41,244 bases of DNA from Bacteroidota bacterium (GTDB lineage: Bacteria > Bacteroidota > Bacteroidia > J057 > JAJTIE01). Below, one piece after another: positions 31,866 to 41,244 of this stretch. Where the stretch lies: NCBI GenBank assembly GCA_021300195.1, contig JAJTIE010000026.1, positions 1 to 41,244 on the forward strand, given 5' to 3'. Every line of letters starts with the position of its first letter. Positions within the stretch are counted from its first letter, which is position 1. The notes under the pieces are model-generated. The model did no database searches, was not told the DNA's origin, and saw only the letters and a list, made by a program, of their open reading frames with translations. The position numbers were made by a program, and so were the translations under genes.

Positions 31866-32444
31866 ATGAAACCCCTATATGCCGCCCCCGGCCCGGACAC
31901 GCTGGCCTGCCCCGCCTGCGATACCCGCTTCCTGGGTGCTACAGATTTGCCCCTGTACATCCGGGGTGCGCAGCTGGTGGAGATGCTACAGCTGGGCGAC
32001 CAGACCATCCGGCTGGACGGCCAGCTGAGGCTGAAGCTAGACCAGCTACTGGCCGCCGGAGACTATGATGTGGAAGACACAGCGGTGCTACAGCTGAGCG
32101 GACGGGTGGAGTGCCCTGCCTGTGGCCACCATAGCGACTGGCAGCTACAGCGCCCAGAGGCCGACCTGATGTATAGCCGCTACCATGTGCAGGCCCTGGA
32201 GCCGGAGACCGCCCCGGCTACGCAGCAGCAGCTGGAGGTACTACAGCTGATGGCCGTGCGCGACCTGCAGGCACAGCTGCGGAAGGACGAGGCACCCAAG
32301 GATCTTTCGAACCAGCCAGACCTGGAAGCCCTGTTTGCCTACCTGGCTCAGTATACCTTGGCCCGGCTGGCCTATGCCCCCGCGCCCCTGGCCGGGGTTC
32401 GCTACTACGCGGTATCGCTGGCAGGTCGCCCCGATAGCGATTAG
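31866..32444 (+). CDS. Hypothetical protein with two CPAC motifs
   Basis: 192 residues from ATG 31866. Two CPAC pairs (C15/C18 in LACPACDTRF and C83/C86 in VECPACGHHSDW) form a likely four-cysteine zinc site. The stretch between them is acidic and Leu-rich (LRLKLDQLLAAGDYDVEDTAVLQL), and the C-terminal half (about 100-190) is helical with many Gln/Ala. I recognise no family; an adaptor or nucleic-acid-binding zinc ribbon is possible. An upstream extension to 31752 crosses the promoter and is unlikely. It lies just before tRNA-Val. Confidence 0.72.
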   Translation: MKPLYAAPGPDTLACPACDTRFLGATDLPLYIRGAQLVEMLQLGDQTIRLDGQLRLKLDQLLAAGDYDVEDTAVLQLSGRVECPACGHHSDWQLQRPEADLMYSRYHVQALEPETAPATQQQLEVLQLMAVRDLQAQLRKDEAPKDLSNQPDLEALFAYLAQYTLARLAYAPAPLAGVRYYAVSLAGRPDSD

Positions 32445-32481
32445 CATTTCGCTCATTTCTTCTATTTTTGTGCCAATCCAT

Positions 32482-32556
32482 GGGTTGTTAGCTCAGCTGG
32501 TTCAGAGCACTGCCTTGACAGGGCAGGGGTCAACGGTTCGAATCCGTTACAACCCA
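32482..32556 (+). tRNA. tRNA-Val (anticodon GAC)
   Basis: A cloverleaf can be drawn: acceptor GGGTTGT/ACAACCC, D-arm GCTC...GAGC, anticodon stem CTGCC/GGCAG with loop TTGACAG (anticodon GAC, 32517-32519), and T-arm AACGG-TTCGAAT-CCGTT. The discriminator is A and the CCA end is not encoded. It reads GUC and GUU valine codons. No tRNA is adjacent. Confidence 0.93.
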
Positions 32557-32716
32557 CCCCGGTTGTAGCCATGCTGCCGCGGGGCAGTGGTACATCTTTT
32601 TACTTTTCTTTTGCCTGGTCTCGGCAAGGGTTACACAGAGCCGAGGAAAATGCCCCTAAGTGCACTGATCTAAAATAGATTCGCTTTAGACTGAAAGGTC
32701 GCCGCGCACTGTTGTT

Positions 32717-34831
32717 ATGACCATTTACTACTTGCAGTTTGCCTGGGGGCTGGTAGCTATTCCGCTACTGGCATTTATGTTGGGCACATTCGGCCTCAGG
32801 CTCGCCGGCCTCCTTACCCAAACAACGCCCGCCGCACCCAACACGCTGCCGGGGCTTTTTTACCGCCTGCTACTGGGCACGGTGCTGGGCGTGCTGCTAT
32901 ACGCCCTGTACAAGAGCGGCTTCAATACAATCCTGAGCGGGCTATTACTTACGTTTGGCCTTGCACTTATTGGCTTTCGTCGGTATGACAAACCTGTAAT
33001 TGGGCATGGAGAAGGCAAGCCTAAGCCTATTCAGGCAGGCCCTGCAATTTTATTGGGAGGCGTCTACCTCCTGTATATGGGGATTTATTTCCTCTCAAAT
33101 CTAAACGGACATCCCGATCTGCCATTTATTAGCTCGCAAAGCGACCATGGCTTTTATGCGCAGATAGGCAAGAACCTGTCTGAAGGTTTAGCAGAAAACA
33201 GGCTTCCGGTCTACACGTTACTTGAGCCCAGTCAGTACGGAAATGCCATGTATCACTATTTTGATTCGTGGACTTCGGCTGCATTTTCGGATCTTACAGG
33301 GCTTCCCGGTCTCGAAACCATACAAACCTATGAACGGGCCTGGTTTCTGTTTATCACCCTGCTTGGGGTTTGCTCGGTTGTACAATGGTATAGCGCACTT
33401 TCATACTGGGTTCTTCTCTTTATTTCGCTCTCCATTATTGGCCAAACATCACCTGTATTCTATGATTTTCTTCCTCCAAAGCACCATGCCGGCCTACATG
33501 ATTATGCCTTGTTTCTGAGACCATCTTATCTCACAAAAGTATCTTATTTAGCTGCATTCTTTTCTTTGATTCTCTTGCTATGGAAGAGGAAGATGAGGGT
33601 TCTATCTGTGTGCATCAGTACAGGGCTTGTTTTTATATCTGGCGCCTTAGTTGTCTGGACTTTTTCTTGTTTCTATCTCACTTCATTTCTGCTATTTAAG
33701 AAAAATTTTACGAATAAAGGAAAACCATGGGACAAGTTATTTTATGTAACTTTTTCGGTCATTTCTGTGTCTTTATTCTACTATATTTTCTATAATATTA
33801 CAACTATTCAAGGTGGTAGTCATAAAAGCATAGAAAGTTTAGATTTTTATATTACTATAAAATCTATCGCGACCTTTGAGTTTTTGAGAAGAGAAATTAT
33901 TTATCTGGGCTTTCTGTTTTTTTCTACACTTCCATGGGTTATTTTGGTTCTTTTATTTGCCCTTCAGAACAAAACTAGATTTAGGGATCTATTCCCGATT
34001 ACAATTAAGATTGGGTTGATACTTTTTGTTATTCTGTTTCTATTGGGTAGTGTAAGCTCCTTTCTCGTTAAGGGAATTTTGTTTGGAGATTCCGATCAAC
34101 TAACGAGATTTAGTTTCCTTTCGCTTTATTTGATTCTTCTAGTATTGATTGCTGTTCATTTTCATAGATTTTCGATTCCATTAAGATTTTTATGCTACGT
34201 CGTTGTTATATTAGATCTGTATCATTCGTTGGTTTCGCTCAATACACATAGATCGATAAGTTCAATGCCGCCCGATAGTACATTCTCAGATTCTTTTTTT
34301 GAGGAGGTAGCACTACAAGACCATAAGAGCAAAGTAGGCGGCTACATTCAGGATACTTCATCCAATAGGTATATAGACATTTTTACCACCTCCTATTATA
34401 CGGACTTTATTTTTGAATTGACTGTTCTCCCAAATTATTATGGTTTTGTAAGTCTTTTTGATGATGAGATAAACTGGGATTCCACAGATGCCGGGCAGAA
34501 TGCCACTCGAAACATACTGTTCTACCTGAACTACAAGCAGCGCCCGGAGAACAAAGGGCTTACCAGAGATCAGGTTCGCTTCAAGCTAGTTCAAGAGTAT
34601 AAACTGGATTGGGTGGTAACAGACCCGGGCATGGCTTTGCCATCTTACCTGAAACCCCATCGAAGAAGTAAAGTGTGCGATCCTAAAACCGGATTTTGTA
34701 TACATTACTTGAACCTGAAGTCGCTACTTGCGGCCCCCTTACCTGCCGATACCACGATTCGCGATGCTACAAGTAACCCTGAGCCCATGCCCCGAACCCC
34801 AGCAGGAGCTGCTGATAGCCGAGCTGGATGA
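32717..34831 (+). CDS. Polytopic membrane protein, GT-C-like, with AT-rich central part
   Basis: 704 residues with many hydrophobic helices, the first at 5-30. A periplasmic-loop segment SQSDHGFYAQIGKNLSEGL followed by MYHYFDSWTSAAFSDLTGL resembles the Asp-containing first loop of GT-C glycosyltransferases or related polyprenol-linked enzymes; the family is not certain. The last 230 residues form a soluble domain (VQEYKLDWVVTDPGMALP, CDPKTGFCIHYLNL). Base composition is unusual: the first 250 and last 300 bases are as GC-rich as the neighbours, but about 33500-34480 is strikingly AT-rich (the line at 33781 is 25% G+C). It overlaps the next gene, prmA, by 68 bases. A paralogue with the same N-terminus (YYLQF-WGL-AIP) starts at 41135. 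Confidence 0.7.
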   Translation: MTIYYLQFAWGLVAIPLLAFMLGTFGLRLAGLLTQTTPAAPNTLPGLFYRLLLGTVLGVLLYALYKSGFNTILSGLLLTFGLALIGFRRYDKPVIGHGEGKPKPIQAGPAILLGGVYLLYMGIYFLSNLNGHPDLPFISSQSDHGFYAQIGKNLSEGLAENRLPVYTLLEPSQYGNAMYHYFDSWTSAAFSDLTGLPGLETIQTYERAWFLFITLLGVCSVVQWYSALSYWVLLFISLSIIGQTSPVFYDFLPPKHHAGLHDYALFLRPSYLTKVSYLAAFFSLILLLWKRKMRVLSVCISTGLVFISGALVVWTFSCFYLTSFLLFKKNFTNKGKPWDKLFYVTFSVISVSLFYYIFYNITTIQGGSHKSIESLDFYITIKSIATFEFLRREIIYLGFLFFSTLPWVILVLLFALQNKTRFRDLFPITIKIGLILFVILFLLGSVSSFLVKGILFGDSDQLTRFSFLSLYLILLVLIAVHFHRFSIPLRFLCYVVVILDLYHSLVSLNTHRSISSMPPDSTFSDSFFEEVALQDHKSKVGGYIQDTSSNRYIDIFTTSYYTDFIFELTVLPNYYGFVSLFDDEINWDSTDAGQNATRNILFYLNYKQRPENKGLTRDQVRFKLVQEYKLDWVVTDPGMALPSYLKPHRRSKVCDPKTGFCIHYLNLKSLLAAPLPADTTIRDATSNPEPMPRTPAGAADSRAG

Positions 34832-35582
34832 CCTGGCCTACGACAGCTACTGGCAGCAGCCCCACCAGATGGTGGCTTATATAGCCGAGACAGACTTTGA
34901 CGAAGCAGCCCTGCAGGCGGTGCTGGCCCATTACCCCGGCGTGCAGTATTGTAGGGAGGAGATGCCCGAGCAGAACTGGAACCAGGCGTGGGAGCAGCAC
35001 TATGAACCCATTGCCATACCCGGGGTGTGCTACATCCATGCGCGCTTTCATCCCCCGGCCCAGGGCTATCCCACCGTGCTGTGCATCCAGCCCCAGATGA
35101 GCTTTGGCACTGGCCACCATGCCACCACCCGCCTGGTGATACAGGCCCTGGCCCGGCAGCAGCAGCCCTATGGCCGCGTGCTAGACATGGGCTGCGGCAC
35201 GGGCATACTGGGCATATACGCCCTGGCCAATGGCGCCGAGCGCTGCGATTTCTACGACATAGACCCCCAGTGTGTAGAAAACACCCGCGATAACCTGGCA
35301 CTGAATGGCCAGCAGGCCCACTGTGTGCAGGTGGGCGAGCCTGCGGCCATACCGGACGGCACATTCTATCATACCATCCTCGCCAATATTAACCGAAACA
35401 TTCTGCTACAGCATGCCCCGGCCTATGCACAGTTGCTACAGCCCGGCGGAAGTTTATATCTTAGTGGATTCTACACCTATGATGTGCCCCTACTTTCCCG
35501 GCACGTTCAGGCCTTGGGCCTGGCGCTGGCGGATCAGTGGGCTGAGGGGGAGTGGGCGTGTCTGCGGTTTGATAAGGGTTGA
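34764..35582 (+). CDS. prmA: Ribosomal protein L11 methyltransferase
   Basis: 272 residues from ATG 34764. PrmA adds methyl groups from S-adenosylmethionine to ribosomal protein L11. The family pattern is complete: an N-terminal substrate-binding part, NWNQAWEQHYEP, FGTGHHATTRL, the SAM-binding motif LDMGCGTGILGI, DFYDIDPQCVENT, and ILANINRNILL near the catalytic core. A longer frame begins at 34728, but the extra 12 residues do not resemble the family. The start lies inside the end of the preceding membrane-protein gene. The next gene starts 36 bases after the stop. Confidence 0.92.
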   Translation: MLQVTLSPCPEPQQELLIAELDDLAYDSYWQQPHQMVAYIAETDFDEAALQAVLAHYPGVQYCREEMPEQNWNQAWEQHYEPIAIPGVCYIHARFHPPAQGYPTVLCIQPQMSFGTGHHATTRLVIQALARQQQPYGRVLDMGCGTGILGIYALANGAERCDFYDIDPQCVENTRDNLALNGQQAHCVQVGEPAAIPDGTFYHTILANINRNILLQHAPAYAQLLQPGGSLYLSGFYTYDVPLLSRHVQALGLALADQWAEGEWACLRFDKG

Positions 35583-35618
35583 CAAGAGAAACGAACACAA
35601 GCACCAGCTCCTCTCTCC

Positions 35619-38600
35619 ATGCGCTATTCAATTGTATTTCTACTGTGCTGGCTGCCGGGCCTGGTGATGGCGCAGCTGACAGGTAAGGCCGACACCTTTG
35701 GCCAAGAGCTGGCCACTGAGGTGGTAAAACTGCGAAGCGACGGACACAACCAGTGGTTGGGCCATTACCTGGCCTTCTACGAGAGCGACACGCTGAGCGA
35801 CAGCGAACGCACCCTGATAGCCAAGACCCTGGGCCTGCTACTCCGGGAGCCGGGCTACAAGCTGGTGCCACATGGCCTGCTGCTGCTGGACATGACCCAC
35901 TTGCTGAAGGATAGTGTGCTTTCCATCCGCCTACCGCTGGATAACTACCTCAAGGTCATTTATGTGGCCCGTGGCGGGCTGGCGGCAGAGGGGCAGTTTC
36001 AGCGCTATAACGACCGCCTGGCCCAGGTACTAGGCCAGGGCCTGCTGTACGATACGCAAAAATCTCGCTGGACCGTGGAGGCAGACTCTGCCAGGCTGGT
36101 AGCACAGAAGCAGTACGACGCCAAGCGCAAGATAGAGGTTATAGAGCCGCTCCTCCGGCTGGATCGTGCTTTTCTCCACTACGAGGATGCCTATACCCGC
36201 GGCACCCTGGCCGAAACAAATGCGCTGTACCACCCCCTGCGCTGGCTGTGGGAGGGGCAGGGAGGCACCTATGCCTGGACGCGTGCCGGCCTGGACGGCG
36301 GGGCCGTATACTGTAGCCTGAAGAGCTATCGGATAAACTGTGCCGAGACCGCCTGGACGGCAGACTCGGTAACACTGACCTATGCGGGTGGGCCGGCTGC
36401 TAAGCTGGCCGGTAGGCTGGTCGAGGATTTTGCCCAAGGTGGGGACCCGGAAAGGCTACAGTACCCCCAGTTCTACAGCCAGGGCGAACGCGTAGAGATT
36501 CCCAATATCCTGCCAGGGGTAGACTATGTGGGCGGTTTTGCGCTGAAGGGGAAACATCGATATGGCAGCAGCGATGACCGGCATGCGGCTGAGCTGCGGA
36601 TCAAGCGCGCCGACACCCTGGTGCTGCGCGCCCAGCTAAGAGAGGTAAGCCTGGAGGATCCACAGATCAACCAGAAGTTTGTACGCGCATCACTCCTGCT
36701 ACCCGGCGGAGACTCGCTGTATCACCCCATGATCGACCTGTTTTTCGATACCGGAACCCGCCAGCTACGCCTCCTCATAGACCGCGACTCGCCGGCCAGC
36801 TGGCAGCCCATCTACAGCAGCCACCACCGCATGGAGTTCTACATAGATGAGGTGAGCTGGAACCTGGCCAATGATACCCTGCACTTTGGGTCGGCCATTG
36901 CACAGGAGTGGAAGAAATTTGCCCTCCAGAGCCAGGACTGGTTCGATGCGCAGACCTACATGAAGCTAAACGGAACTCAGTACTTCAATCCCATCGGGAT
37001 GATTTACAAAGTGTATCTGGAGGACCTAAAGCGCCAGCGCGAAGCAAAGAGAGCCAGCCAAGTGCGCCAGAAGCAGATACAGCAGCGCCAGGCCGAGGCC
37101 GAAGACCAACTGAGTGGCTTTGAGTGGAATGACAGAAGCAACGAAAACACGCAGGAAAACCCGGGCAGCCTGGATTTTGCCGACTTTGGGTCGGAATGGA
37201 ATGTGGGCAGCCAGGAAGACGAGGAGATAGCGGAGGAATATGAGCAAGAAGCGCAAGAGGAGCAGGACGAAAGCTATGGGTCGGTAGAGGTTTTGCCCGC
37301 CAAGTCGAATCCCACAGAAGTTAAGCAGGCTCCCGATGCCAAGACGCAGACCCTGGAGGTACGGCCCCACTACGACTATAGCGTGGATGAAGTCCTGCGG
37401 CGCTTTGGCCACGAGAAGAGCAAGGCGAGTTTTCTGGAGCAGCTGCGCATCCTGTCGGGTGCCGGTTTTGTGGACTTCAACCGACAGACCGAGATTATCA
37501 CCATACGCCCCAAGCTGATCCGCTGGGGTGCCAGCATAAACCACTGGCGAGACTATGATAAGCTGGTGCTACAGACCTATGTGGAGGGTGGAGACAATGC
37601 CTACCTGCTGTACCCTAGCAAAGAGATAAACATGCGTGGGGTAGAGCTCTTTTACCTAAACGATAGCGTGCTCGTATCGGCCTACCCGGAGAGCTATAAA
37701 GTGAGCGTGTATGAAAACCGAACACTGGACTGGGCTGGTGGGGTAAAAGCTGGGAAGGCAAACCTGGAGGCTAAGGGGCATTCGGCTTTTCGATACTCCT
37801 ATGCCGATAACAAGATTGACTGCGACTCTATAGACTACATACGTTTTGTACCCGAGCGAGACAAATTCTACCAGCCAGACCAGCTAAGTAGCCGCGTACT
37901 GCGTGCGCTGAAGCGCCTGCGCATAGAGGACATTACCGGCGCCATCTACATTACCCAGCCCAACAATAAGAGTGCTTACAAGCCGCATGGTATGTACCCG
38001 GTGTTCGATAGCCATACCGAAGCCTTTGTGTACTGGGACGAGGAGGACGTACAGGCCCGGCAGTATAGCCGAGACAAGCTACATTTTATCCTCGATCCCT
38101 TTGTGATAGACAGCCTGGAAACTTGCGACCTCCGAGGGCTGGAGTTTCTGGGCGAGTTTGAATGTGCCGAGATATTTGAGCCTTTTCGAGATACGCTAAA
38201 GCCCGTGGCAGACGACACCTATGGCGTGCACCAGCTAACGCCGCCAGCGGGCTGGCAGGCCTACCAGGGCAAGGGACGGTTTTATAACGAGCTGACCATG
38301 GACAGCTATGGCCTGTGGGGAAATGGGAAGATAGAATACCTGGCCTGCCAAGCCGAGAGCGATACCTTCACGTTCCACTTTGATAGCGTAATGGCCAAGA
38401 CGAGAAACCTGCGGCTACAGGACGGAGCCCACGGAGGGGCTAGCTATCCGGATATCTCTGTGGCGCACTGCAAGTATACCTGGTACCCCAAGGCAGAAAG
38501 ACTGGTGCTGGAGAGTGCGTACAAGGAACCGTTTGTTTTTTACAACGGAACCGCGGAGTTTCTGGGAAGAATTGTGATAACGCCCCGGGGTGCCTATGGC

Positions 38601-40613
38601 GACGGGGTGCTGACCATGGGAGATATGCAGCTGGAGAGTGATTCGATCGACATGAGCGATAGCAAGCTGACGGCTGCTGCTGGTACCCTGCGTGTGGCCG
38701 ACCCAAAGCTGCCCACACGCCTGTACTTCCAGGCTGAGAATTCGGTTCTCGAATATGATGTAAAGGAGGGACAAGCCAACTTCTATAGCCGCGAGCCAGG
38801 CGTGGCAAACAATAGCTTCCCAGGCCTGCAGTACCGCACCTCGCTGGGCAAGGGCCACTACAATCATAAAACTGCCGAGATCAGCCTGGCAAGCAACACT
38901 ACCAATCCCCAGCTGAATTTCTTTGAGAGTACGAATCCGGCCATGCGGGGCCTCCGTTTTGAGGGCCAGGTTGCCCTATTTGATACCCTGAACCAGCGAC
39001 TGGAAATCAAGGAGGCAGATAGCATACACGTGGCCGATGCCATCCTCTACCCGGATAGTGCACAGGTAACCATCCTGCCTAGTGGTAAGATGAATACCCT
39101 GAATAATGCACGCATTGTCTTTGATGACAGCACCCGCTACCACCAGTTGTATAGCGCCGTAGCCGATATCCAGGATGCCTACAACTATAAGGCCAAGGCC
39201 AGGTACCTGTATGCCAATGTATTGGGCCAGCCACAGGAGATCTACTTCAATACCATCAAGGTGCTAGGAGATAGCCTGAGCGTGGGCTATGGCGAAATAC
39301 TGGAGGCAGACAAGTTTTACTTATCCGAAAAAATACTCTTCCGCAACACCGCCACCATAACGGCCAATCAGCGCTTCCTGGCTTTTGAGGGAGAGGTGAA
39401 AGTAGAGTTTGATAACCCCACCTTTGATGAATGGATCGCCTTCAAGGATGGATTTGTAAACCCGGATACGGTAATTGTGAAGATAGATGCCCAGAAACTA
39501 CGCGGAAAGTCGGTAGGGATGAGCTACTATGCCTCGCTGCGCAACCGGTACTTCTACCAGCTATTCCTGGAGCAGAAGAGCGCCAGCCAGGCCAAGGATC
39601 GAGATATATTGACAGCCTATGGCGCCCTAACCTATGACAAGAGCGTAGGAAAGTTTCGGATAGGCCCTACGGATAAGCTACTAGGCAAGAGCTTTTTGGG
39701 CAATGTGATGGAGACCGACGACAGACTGGAGGTGAAGACCGCCCGGGGCCTGATGGCCTGGCCCGTGCCGGATAACCCACTGGCCAACACCCTGAAGATG
39801 CGCGTAGCGGGCGCAATGACCCAGCATGGCGACCCCGAAAAGATGGATGGGCAGGTAAGCATTACCCTGGACTTTCCCAAGGACCTGCGAAGCGCCTTCT
39901 ACAAATATGGCAGTCGTATGGTGCGAGATGGCTTCAACCAGTTTCCTGCAGACCTGTCTGCACGGCACACCCAGGAGTACCTGTCGGAGCTGATGGTAGC
40001 AGGCAAGGAAACCGAGAAGCCCGATGAGCTACCTAGCCAGGTATGGCTGGAACAAGCCCCAAAGCTGGACGACCTCGCACAGCTGAAGCTAGGCCAGTAT
40101 ATGGAAAACGACCTGGTGATAAGCGGGCTGAAGCTGCGCTACTGCCCGGCTGCCAATGCCTTCTACACCGCAGAAGATGCCAACCTGCTGGCAATGGCTG
40201 GCGAAACGCTGAACAAGCAGGTATCTGCTCGAGCAGCATACGTGTTTGGTCGCCCCGACGCGCGTGGAAACCAACGGGCCGATACCCTTTTCCTCTACAT
40301 TGGCTGGGCTAACGATTTTGAGTACCTATACCTGGAGGTAACCGAGGGCTACATAAAGGCGGTAAGCAGCCACATAGGCACCACCCAGGTGCTGGAGGAG
40401 CAGCTGCTGAAGATGCAGAAAAAACCCGACGACTATCCCTACCAGCTGGTGATAGGCAAGGAAGATGATAAGACCCTGTTTTTCAACCGCTTTAGCCTAA
40501 AGTATTCTCCCTCGGCCTGCGAGCGCAGCTCGGCCTACGAACAAGGGGCCGAAGACGAGAGCCCTGAAACCCAGCCCGATGAAACCCCGGATGCAGACAG
40601 CCCAGCCCGATGA
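35619..40613 (+). CDS. Very large exported protein, function unknown
   Basis: 1664 residues with a signal peptide (MRYSIVFLLCWLPGLVMAQ). No catalytic motif is recognised. The N-terminal 470 residues are mixed and look alpha/beta. Residues about 465-590 are a charged, low-complexity linker: a basic coiled coil (LKRQREAKRASQVRQKQIQQ), then an acidic stretch (EDEEIAEEYEQEAQEEQDES). The rest is mainly short beta-strands with recurrent themes (LQDGAHGGASYPDISVAH, ADSIHVADAILYPDSAQV, NTIKVLGDSLSVGYGE), reminiscent of OstA/LptD-like or beta-helical envelope proteins. The C-terminus is Pro/Glu-rich without a T9SS sorting domain. It may belong to a large exported family of Bacteroidota with no function assigned. 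It follows prmA by 36 bases on the same strand and may be cotranscribed. Confidence 0.85.
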   Translation: MRYSIVFLLCWLPGLVMAQLTGKADTFGQELATEVVKLRSDGHNQWLGHYLAFYESDTLSDSERTLIAKTLGLLLREPGYKLVPHGLLLLDMTHLLKDSVLSIRLPLDNYLKVIYVARGGLAAEGQFQRYNDRLAQVLGQGLLYDTQKSRWTVEADSARLVAQKQYDAKRKIEVIEPLLRLDRAFLHYEDAYTRGTLAETNALYHPLRWLWEGQGGTYAWTRAGLDGGAVYCSLKSYRINCAETAWTADSVTLTYAGGPAAKLAGRLVEDFAQGGDPERLQYPQFYSQGERVEIPNILPGVDYVGGFALKGKHRYGSSDDRHAAELRIKRADTLVLRAQLREVSLEDPQINQKFVRASLLLPGGDSLYHPMIDLFFDTGTRQLRLLIDRDSPASWQPIYSSHHRMEFYIDEVSWNLANDTLHFGSAIAQEWKKFALQSQDWFDAQTYMKLNGTQYFNPIGMIYKVYLEDLKRQREAKRASQVRQKQIQQRQAEAEDQLSGFEWNDRSNENTQENPGSLDFADFGSEWNVGSQEDEEIAEEYEQEAQEEQDESYGSVEVLPAKSNPTEVKQAPDAKTQTLEVRPHYDYSVDEVLRRFGHEKSKASFLEQLRILSGAGFVDFNRQTEIITIRPKLIRWGASINHWRDYDKLVLQTYVEGGDNAYLLYPSKEINMRGVELFYLNDSVLVSAYPESYKVSVYENRTLDWAGGVKAGKANLEAKGHSAFRYSYADNKIDCDSIDYIRFVPERDKFYQPDQLSSRVLRALKRLRIEDITGAIYITQPNNKSAYKPHGMYPVFDSHTEAFVYWDEEDVQARQYSRDKLHFILDPFVIDSLETCDLRGLEFLGEFECAEIFEPFRDTLKPVADDTYGVHQLTPPAGWQAYQGKGRFYNELTMDSYGLWGNGKIEYLACQAESDTFTFHFDSVMAKTRNLRLQDGAHGGASYPDISVAHCKYTWYPKAERLVLESAYKEPFVFYNGTAEFLGRIVITPRGAYGDGVLTMGDMQLESDSIDMSDSKLTAAAGTLRVADPKLPTRLYFQAENSVLEYDVKEGQANFYSREPGVANNSFPGLQYRTSLGKGHYNHKTAEISLASNTTNPQLNFFESTNPAMRGLRFEGQVALFDTLNQRLEIKEADSIHVADAILYPDSAQVTILPSGKMNTLNNARIVFDDSTRYHQLYSAVADIQDAYNYKAKARYLYANVLGQPQEIYFNTIKVLGDSLSVGYGEILEADKFYLSEKILFRNTATITANQRFLAFEGEVKVEFDNPTFDEWIAFKDGFVNPDTVIVKIDAQKLRGKSVGMSYYASLRNRYFYQLFLEQKSASQAKDRDILTAYGALTYDKSVGKFRIGPTDKLLGKSFLGNVMETDDRLEVKTARGLMAWPVPDNPLANTLKMRVAGAMTQHGDPEKMDGQVSITLDFPKDLRSAFYKYGSRMVRDGFNQFPADLSARHTQEYLSELMVAGKETEKPDELPSQVWLEQAPKLDDLAQLKLGQYMENDLVISGLKLRYCPAANAFYTAEDANLLAMAGETLNKQVSARAAYVFGRPDARGNQRADTLFLYIGWANDFEYLYLEVTEGYIKAVSSHIGTTQVLEEQLLKMQKKPDDYPYQLVIGKEDDKTLFFNRFSLKYSPSACERSSAYEQGAEDESPETQPDETPDADSPAR

Positions 40614-41134: not shown

Positions 41135-41244
41135 ATGGCCATCTACTATCTGCAATTTCTTTGGGGCCTTATCGCAATCCCAGTCCTAGCCTATACCGTA
41201 GGTACCCTTACGCTGAAGGGACTTCGCTTTCTAACAAAAACTCA
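41135..41244 (+). CDS. Start of a paralogue of the 32717 membrane protein (truncated by window end)
   Basis: ATG at 41135 opens a frame that continues to the window edge: MAIYYLQFLWGLIAIPVLAY and on to LTLKGLRFLTKT. The first 36 residues align with the start of the 32717 gene (MTIYYLQFAWGLVAIPLLAF), with the same spacing of hydrophobic and basic residues, while the DNA is only moderately similar. So it is an older paralogue and not a recent duplication. Too short in the window for more; a multi-membrane protein is expected. Confidence 0.8.
   Translation, partial: MAIYYLQFLWGLIAIPVLAYTVGTLTLKGLRFLTKT

Follow-up and report, generated by a model that had tools for sequence, protein, structure and literature searches.

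A host-like start and an AT-rich interior in the gene of a putative GT-C-fold membrane protein from a 57% G+C Bacteroidota genome

The locus

The window analysed here, a stretch of 41,244 nucleotides, is the whole of one contig (C26; JAJTIE010000026.1) of a Bacteroidota genome that comprises 2.67 Mb in 71 contigs and has a G+C content of 57%. Its central subject is an open reading frame (ORF) of 704 amino acids at 32717–34831, with an overall G+C of 0.42 and a product predicted to be a membrane glycosyltransferase-like protein of the GT-C fold. This ORF and all of the neighbours described below lie on the forward strand. A tRNA-Val (GAC) gene occupies 32481–32559, leaving a gap of 157 bases that agrees with the ∼160 bases given in a preliminary description of this DNA. 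Downstream, prmA, a member of the ribosomal protein L11 methyltransferase family with host composition, runs from an ATG at 34764 to 35582. It is followed by a gene for a 1664-amino acid protein (35619–40613), which matches no Pfam or NCBIfam family and also adjoins prmA in the relatives G001 (49% identity), G002 and G014.

The contig ends inside a second member of the ORF's own family. This paralogue, already noted in the preliminary description, does begin with an ATG, and its first 36 codons (41135–41244) can be read before the contig end truncates it. These codons specify a peptide with 58% of its 36 amino acids identical to those of the ORF and have 57% nucleotide identity to it; over this length there is no sign of recent conversion between the two copies. 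Protein and profile searches did not find the rest of the second copy elsewhere in the genome.

The nearby tRNA gene had been read as a common neighbourhood for integration, a suggestion that the window does not bear out. The 3′ end of the tRNA-Val gene is unrepeated in the window at up to three mismatches (the only match is the tRNA itself), and no integrase or transposase family was detected in the 25 window ORFs, a subset of the total, scanned against Pfam. Searches for direct and tandem repeats found nothing framing the gene. A tRNA-borne integrative element, recognizable by a 3′-end repeat together with an integrase, is therefore not seen within the contig, and the tRNA gene is no evidence of integration; the case for tRNA-linked integration is one of position alone. 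The gene also has no conserved place in the genomes seen: the family profile detects no member among the closed ORFs at four prmA loci (those of G001, G002, G003 and G014) or at six tRNA-Val loci of relatives. G001, which belongs to the same family of genomes, carries one family copy ∼12.5 kb upstream of prmA, and its tRNA-Val gene adjoins fabI. When the family profile was run against the fabI loci (3.0–20.8 kb) of the best 80 of 561 relatives, it returned one weak match (E 2.4e-4).

A patchily distributed family with a predicted GT-C fold

The family profile finds members at E ≤ 1e-5 in at least 29 of the 395 genomes of the class, the gene's own genome included; no more than three candidates were scored in each. 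Of the 30 class-level loci that this search yielded, L100, L103 and L106 were omitted as having no ORF past the filter. No Pfam or NCBIfam model passes its cut-off for the family, the one NCBIfam match lying far below it. A profile built from 33 other family sequences covers the window protein from residue 5 to residue 665 in a single domain, and this end-to-end alignment indicates that no domain has been inserted. Identities to homologues are only ∼14–26%. No donor and no close relative of the window gene was found, nor any sequence close enough to recombine with it; a protein search of the contigs of other genomes gave 179 pattern matches and no confirmed relative. Two homologues (L044:7257-9236 and L047:359-2305) have a G+C content of only 21–23% in genomes of 30–33%.

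An AlphaFold2 model built from 34 sequences (pTM 0.83, mean pLDDT 74.8) predicts the multi-helix membrane architecture of GT-C proteins. In a VIA structure comparison, residues ∼100–668 match GT-C structures, the best being ArnT (5f15; Z 11.5, rmsd 5.4 over 404 residues), a score to be read with the caveat that Z values below ∼13 can reflect an arrangement common in helical proteins. Rows 1–38 of the comparison, with Z from 11.5 to 6.1, each represent a GT-C protein or a complex that contains one, where we take the matched subunits to be the GT-C ones, partly by their names; the next rows fall to 5.3 and are unrelated. The uniformity of this list and the gap after row 38 are our reasons for accepting the GT-C assignment. 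Foldseek alone gave a weaker signal against the PDB, with a best E of 0.0048 and no match at E ≤ 0.001, though its first four rows are GT-C proteins.

The available text of PMC8035078 describes GT-C glycosyltransferases as having an acidic residue or a DxD-like motif in an extracytoplasmic loop. The window protein is without a DxD as such, and three of its residues are nearly invariant in the family: Asp143 (32 of 33 sequences), Glu160 (32 of 32) and His180 (32 of 32), the last within a nearly invariant Tyr-His-Tyr at 179–181. In the model, Asp143 stands just past the first helix of the GT-C module (108–129), and Glu160 and His180 fall in the same stretch beyond that helix. Likeness to enzymes such as ArnT, PMT, STT3/PglB, AftA and ALG12 is one of predicted fold over residues ∼100–668 and of the conserved Asp143. 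In contrast to those enzymes, the window protein has extra N-terminal helices (residues 1–99), and its family lacks both a sequence match to the solved members and a Pfam or NCBIfam family of its own. A 34-sequence profile run against the solved GT-C enzymes gave no sequence match, only two designed proteins (E 0.009 and 0.013). We consider the window protein a likely GT-C-fold, integral-membrane, glycosyltransferase-like member of a patchily distributed Bacteroidota family. Its fold and a conserved acidic residue point to a probable role in decorating an envelope polymer, with a lipid-linked sugar as donor, on the outer side of the inner membrane.

Composition along the gene

G+C content falls and rises again along the ORF. 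It is 0.60 in codons 1–60, 0.46–0.49 up to codon 240, 0.40 up to codon 300 and 0.30–0.38 in codons 301–600, after which it recovers to 0.48 and then 0.56. A middle falling to about 25% G+C had been described beforehand and is confirmed, with values of 0.265 in the 200 bases 33700–33899 and 0.23 in codons 341–380. The GC-rich start claimed for the gene is likewise present. The GC-rich end is so only in part: family homology stops at residue 665, and the last ∼120 bases (34712–34831) form a tail that overlaps the start of prmA, so that some of the final rise is not the gene's own.

Third positions follow the same course, from a GC3 of 0.68–0.80 in the first three 40-codon windows to 0.17–0.35 in windows starting at codons 301–481, and the dip is thus not due to amino acids alone. 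Codon sampling does not account for it either, as had been proposed. The lowest GC3 over 100 codons is 0.25, against a minimum of 0.41 in 10,000 simulated genes encoding the same protein with host codon usage.

Within its own genome the gene is unusual yet not unique. Its internal G+C range, 0.30, is the fourth widest among 425 host ORFs (mean 0.107, sd 0.044), seven of which reach at least 0.25; none of 139 sampled ORFs of G001 does so. This host pool holds ORFs of at least 200 codons taken from the window and the starts of 40 contigs, a genome sample of 687,350 bases in which one contig start (L129, 2,660 bases) is all N and some long ORFs are possibly false. One long ORF of the pool, L016:18486-19898, has a doubtful 5′ part.

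Within its family the gene stands at the extreme. Among 29 full-length copies, the window gene included and fragments omitted, its range of 0.30 ranks first and the 28 others span 0.05–0.20, the next widest being 0.20 (G129) and 0.16 (a G001 copy). The dip is thus not a family trait, and an AT-rich centre shared by all homologues, which had been named in advance as the observation that would count against a mosaic, is not what they show. Both G001 copies, in surroundings of 56% G+C, are without a comparable dip. G002, a genome of 53% G+C, has a partial homologue in pieces on two contigs; it alone among the homologues is likewise AT-rich with its minimum in the middle, and the window gene may therefore not be the sole case of an AT-rich centre. 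A milder tendency is general, in that 24 of the 29 full-length copies lie below their own flanks in G+C (mean difference −0.042), which we infer to be partly an effect of membrane amino acids.

A smooth bowl and an early synonymous break

The preliminary description called the change in composition sharp. For raw G+C this is not supported, since over codons 1–665 a smooth quadratic (BIC 2680.7) is preferred to one step (2691.1) or two (2691.2). Change-point analysis of G+C returned a single segment under a heavy penalty and three segments under lighter penalties with flanks included. The best such segmentation gives 0.500 (32441–33495), 0.332 (33496–34475) and 0.573 (34476–35600).

This single AT-rich segment favours one way in which the gene could have arisen: an AT-rich homologue may have supplied the centre alone (∼33496–34475) through a double crossover, as an allelic replacement, both ends being resident. 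Synonymous sites tell against it. With the host expectation as an offset and amino acids allowed for, third positions are described by one break at codon 76 (BIC 823.7), almost as well by a quadratic (825.2), and less well by two breaks (834.8). The position of the break is confined within 2 lnL to codons 70–78 (32924–32948) when the 424 other host ORFs serve as reference and to codons 69–78 with 46 membrane-like host ORFs, and it does not fall at codon 260, where replacement of the centre would put it. Its likelihood ratio (LR) is 14.9 in a fine scan and 12.1 in a coarser one, a value reached by none of 1000 simulations, and the break accordingly exceeds amino-acid and sampling effects. The second break that replacement of the centre also calls for, near codon 583, is weak and was reached by 99 of 1000 simulations. 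On the other hand, an LR of at least 12 occurs in 14 of the 181 host ORFs of at least 400 codons, the window gene being the 14th. The clearest synonymous break in the gene is thus a single one, at codon ∼76, between a host-like start and an AT-leaning remainder.

Codon usage, amino-acid make-up and origin

Codon usage and amino-acid make-up distinguish successive parts of the gene. Codons 1–∼75 (32717–32942), which encode predicted N-terminal helices outside the GT-C match, are host-like in both respects, and the host table fits them best of ten (−1.64 bits per codon). In codons ∼76–260 (32943–33495), where Asp143, Glu160 and Tyr-His-Tyr 179–181 fall, mid- or low-G+C tables fit best; third positions lean to AT and amino acids are near-host, as tested for codons 76–240. 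The AT-rich core (33496–34475; G+C 0.332) encodes membrane helices of the GT-C module and is AT-type in both codons and amino acids. Over codons 261–587, AT-rich tables score −1.62 to −1.80 bits per codon against −2.29 for the host, although two tables were built from only 7 and 22 ORFs and the host AT-rich comparison table was chosen by composition, making its good fit partly one of construction. All 12 arginines in these codons are AGA or AGG and none is CGN; the AGA/AGG share in the host is 12%. The conserved C-terminal part (34476–34711), which runs to residue 665, is intermediate between core and host, with a near tie over codons 588–665 between the host table (−1.74) and that of G014 (−1.65).

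Amino acids alone give a similar profile. For each segment, FYMINK/GARP ratios were calibrated against the surrounding G+C of 28 or 29 homologues, out of a total of 28 full-length and two partial ones. They indicate apparent genome G+C values of 0.55, 0.50, 0.37, 0.38 and 0.48 across five segments, and the two central ones depart by z of +3.1 and +4.0. The amino acids of codons 241–587 are those expected of a genome with ∼37% G+C, and this AT-type make-up is the extra dip in the centre. Replacement of the centre alone gains from the same result, which confines AT-type amino acids to codons 241–587 and leaves near-host ones on either side.

We place the probability at roughly 0.55 that an AT-rich family member was acquired into the 57% G+C chromosome, giving a gene of largely AT-rich origin with host-like ends. 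From codon ∼76 onward, and most strongly in codons 241–587, the sequence would carry the make-up of a ∼37–42% G+C genome. Recombination within the better-conserved ends may have preserved the start of a resident copy, and possibly its conserved C-terminal end as well; alternatively, these parts might have already adapted to the host. Of the mosaic or transferred DNA proposed in the preliminary description, foreign-type sequence in this sense finds support in the codon fit of 261–587, the 12 of 12 AGA/AGG arginines and the ∼37% G+C amino acids. Replacement of the centre alone does not, given the break near codon 76, the weak return at 583 and the trees described below. The patchy distribution of the family and the narrower internal ranges of the 28 other full-length copies also favour acquisition; the failure to find a donor, the agreement of the trees, the near tie over codons 588–665 and the lack of recent conversion in the second copy count against it.

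A different account needs no transfer. The centre would be the fastest-evolving part of the family, weakly selected in this lineage, with AT-biased mutation shifting its composition in place. Such local drift would explain why raw G+C forms a smooth bowl, and on synonymous sites, too, a bowl comes close to the fit of a single break, which counts against transfer. Codons 76–240, with near-host amino acids and AT-leaning third positions, show a pattern that is also expected from drift, and 25 of 28 full-length homologues have their lowest identity to the window gene in a central segment. However, in both G001 copies and in G007 and G129, where the surroundings have 52–62% G+C, centres that have diverged as much are not AT-rich. 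The uniform AGA/AGG arginines of the core would also resemble long residence under AT-rich usage rather than a partial drift from CGC, and just 12 of the 425 host ORFs in the sample, the window gene included, have a G+C content below 0.45. On balance we regard drift without transfer as somewhat unlikely.

Phylogeny and assembly

Acquisition of an AT-rich member was also examined through trees of the ends and the centre. The tree of codons 1–240 places the window gene with G001 (SH-aLRT 87) and G014 (86), neither grouping starred. In the free tree of codons 241–600 it stands elsewhere and within no starred set. Both trees carry long-branch warnings. Holding the gene with G001 and G014 for the centre is not rejected (AU p 0.82), and the tree so held is 11.8 lnL better than the free tree found. 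The different phylogenies that the preliminary description looked for between ends and centre are thus not seen, in trees that have little power at identities of ∼14–26%. This absence of conflict agrees with local drift and speaks against replacement of the centre alone, for which, moreover, no sequence close enough to recombine was found. Within-gene transfer is common among strains of E. coli and Shigella in the available text of PMC3212841, which lends replacement of the centre some plausibility; weighing both sides, we hold it to be quite unlikely.

Contig ends fall within family members in G002 (the end of L107 and the start of L030), in G007 (L033 and L028) and in the window genome, and the two G002 ends share a stretch; such breaks perhaps reflect strain variation. 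In the window genome, 4 of 39 unmasked contig starts (L015, L023 and L125 among those concerned) are below 45% G+C; of 418 interior kilobases, 6 are (Fisher p 0.007). Breaks in this assembly seem to favour variable loci that are AT-rich. Two strains or species could accordingly have been joined inside the gene by the assembly. The end of the contig in the second copy, the breaks inside the G002 and G007 homologues and the strain variation suggested by AT-rich contig starts are compatible with such an artefact. Against it stand one unbroken frame with end-to-end family homology through both transitions and a gradual change with no sharp joint in raw G+C, and we consider an artefact very improbable.

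Patchwork genes elsewhere in the genome

DNA exchange between bacteria is known to produce patchwork genes, of which this genome has several. In rhs genes, parts of one gene with distinct G+C, associated with displaced C-terminal tips, are explained by module exchange in the available text of PMC2935791. The window gene resembles them in having parts with distinct G+C signatures, but in rhs genes, as that text presents them, the exchange concerns a non-homologous tip at one end of the gene, whereas the window gene belongs to one family up to residue 665 and its AT-rich part is internal. For E. coli and Shigella, the accessible portion of PMC3212841 reports breakpoints inside genes in 678 of 5282 gene sets (12.8%). 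The likeness there is that transfer units ignore gene borders; those breakpoints are phylogenetic and found among strains, as far as the same portion goes, whereas the window gene offers composition only and has no close strains.

Several other ORFs of the genome have uneven composition. L021:6288-8291 and L021:8324-10255 (reverse strand) are tandem genes for 'WDKTYGG'-type repeat proteins, probably secreted, with AT-rich centres of mostly 32–50% amino-acid identity and G+C-rich tails of 63–88%; the pair is a clear module mosaic. A third such protein (L014:7890-11145, forward strand) lies in two overlapping frames, possibly a frameshifted gene, with AT-rich repeats followed by a G+C-rich tail that has a type IX secretion domain. 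A multi-helix membrane protein near a contig start (L121:39-1835, reverse strand), matching no Pfam family at E ≤ 1e-5, has an AT-rich first half and a second half near host composition. Strong internal contrast is also found in two further host ORFs with AT-rich tips, presumably Rhs-like by their motifs, and in an HsdS-type ORF. An ORF with a reverse transcriptase domain (L006:18222-19832, reverse strand) is AT-rich (35%) in this 57% G+C genome.

It is conceivable, if highly doubtful, that this genome repeatedly pairs ends of host composition with AT-rich exchangeable cores by a common route of within-gene replacement in which the conserved ends serve as recombination handles. The families meant, all of surface proteins and unrelated to one another, are the GT-C enzyme, the secreted repeat proteins with shared tails, the Rhs-like tips and HsdS. 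A literature search, made on titles and the starts of abstracts, found nothing on the family of the window gene or on such a genome-wide pattern.

Concluding remarks

No transfer boundary should be taken from a raw G+C dip in a membrane-protein gene until its amino-acid and synonymous parts have been separated; in this gene the synonymous boundary precedes the visible dip by ∼550 bases. The gene also adds an unnamed, patchily distributed family that is GT-C-like by predicted fold. Should the pattern of host-like ends prove general in this genome, it would be a place to study the transfer of gene parts.
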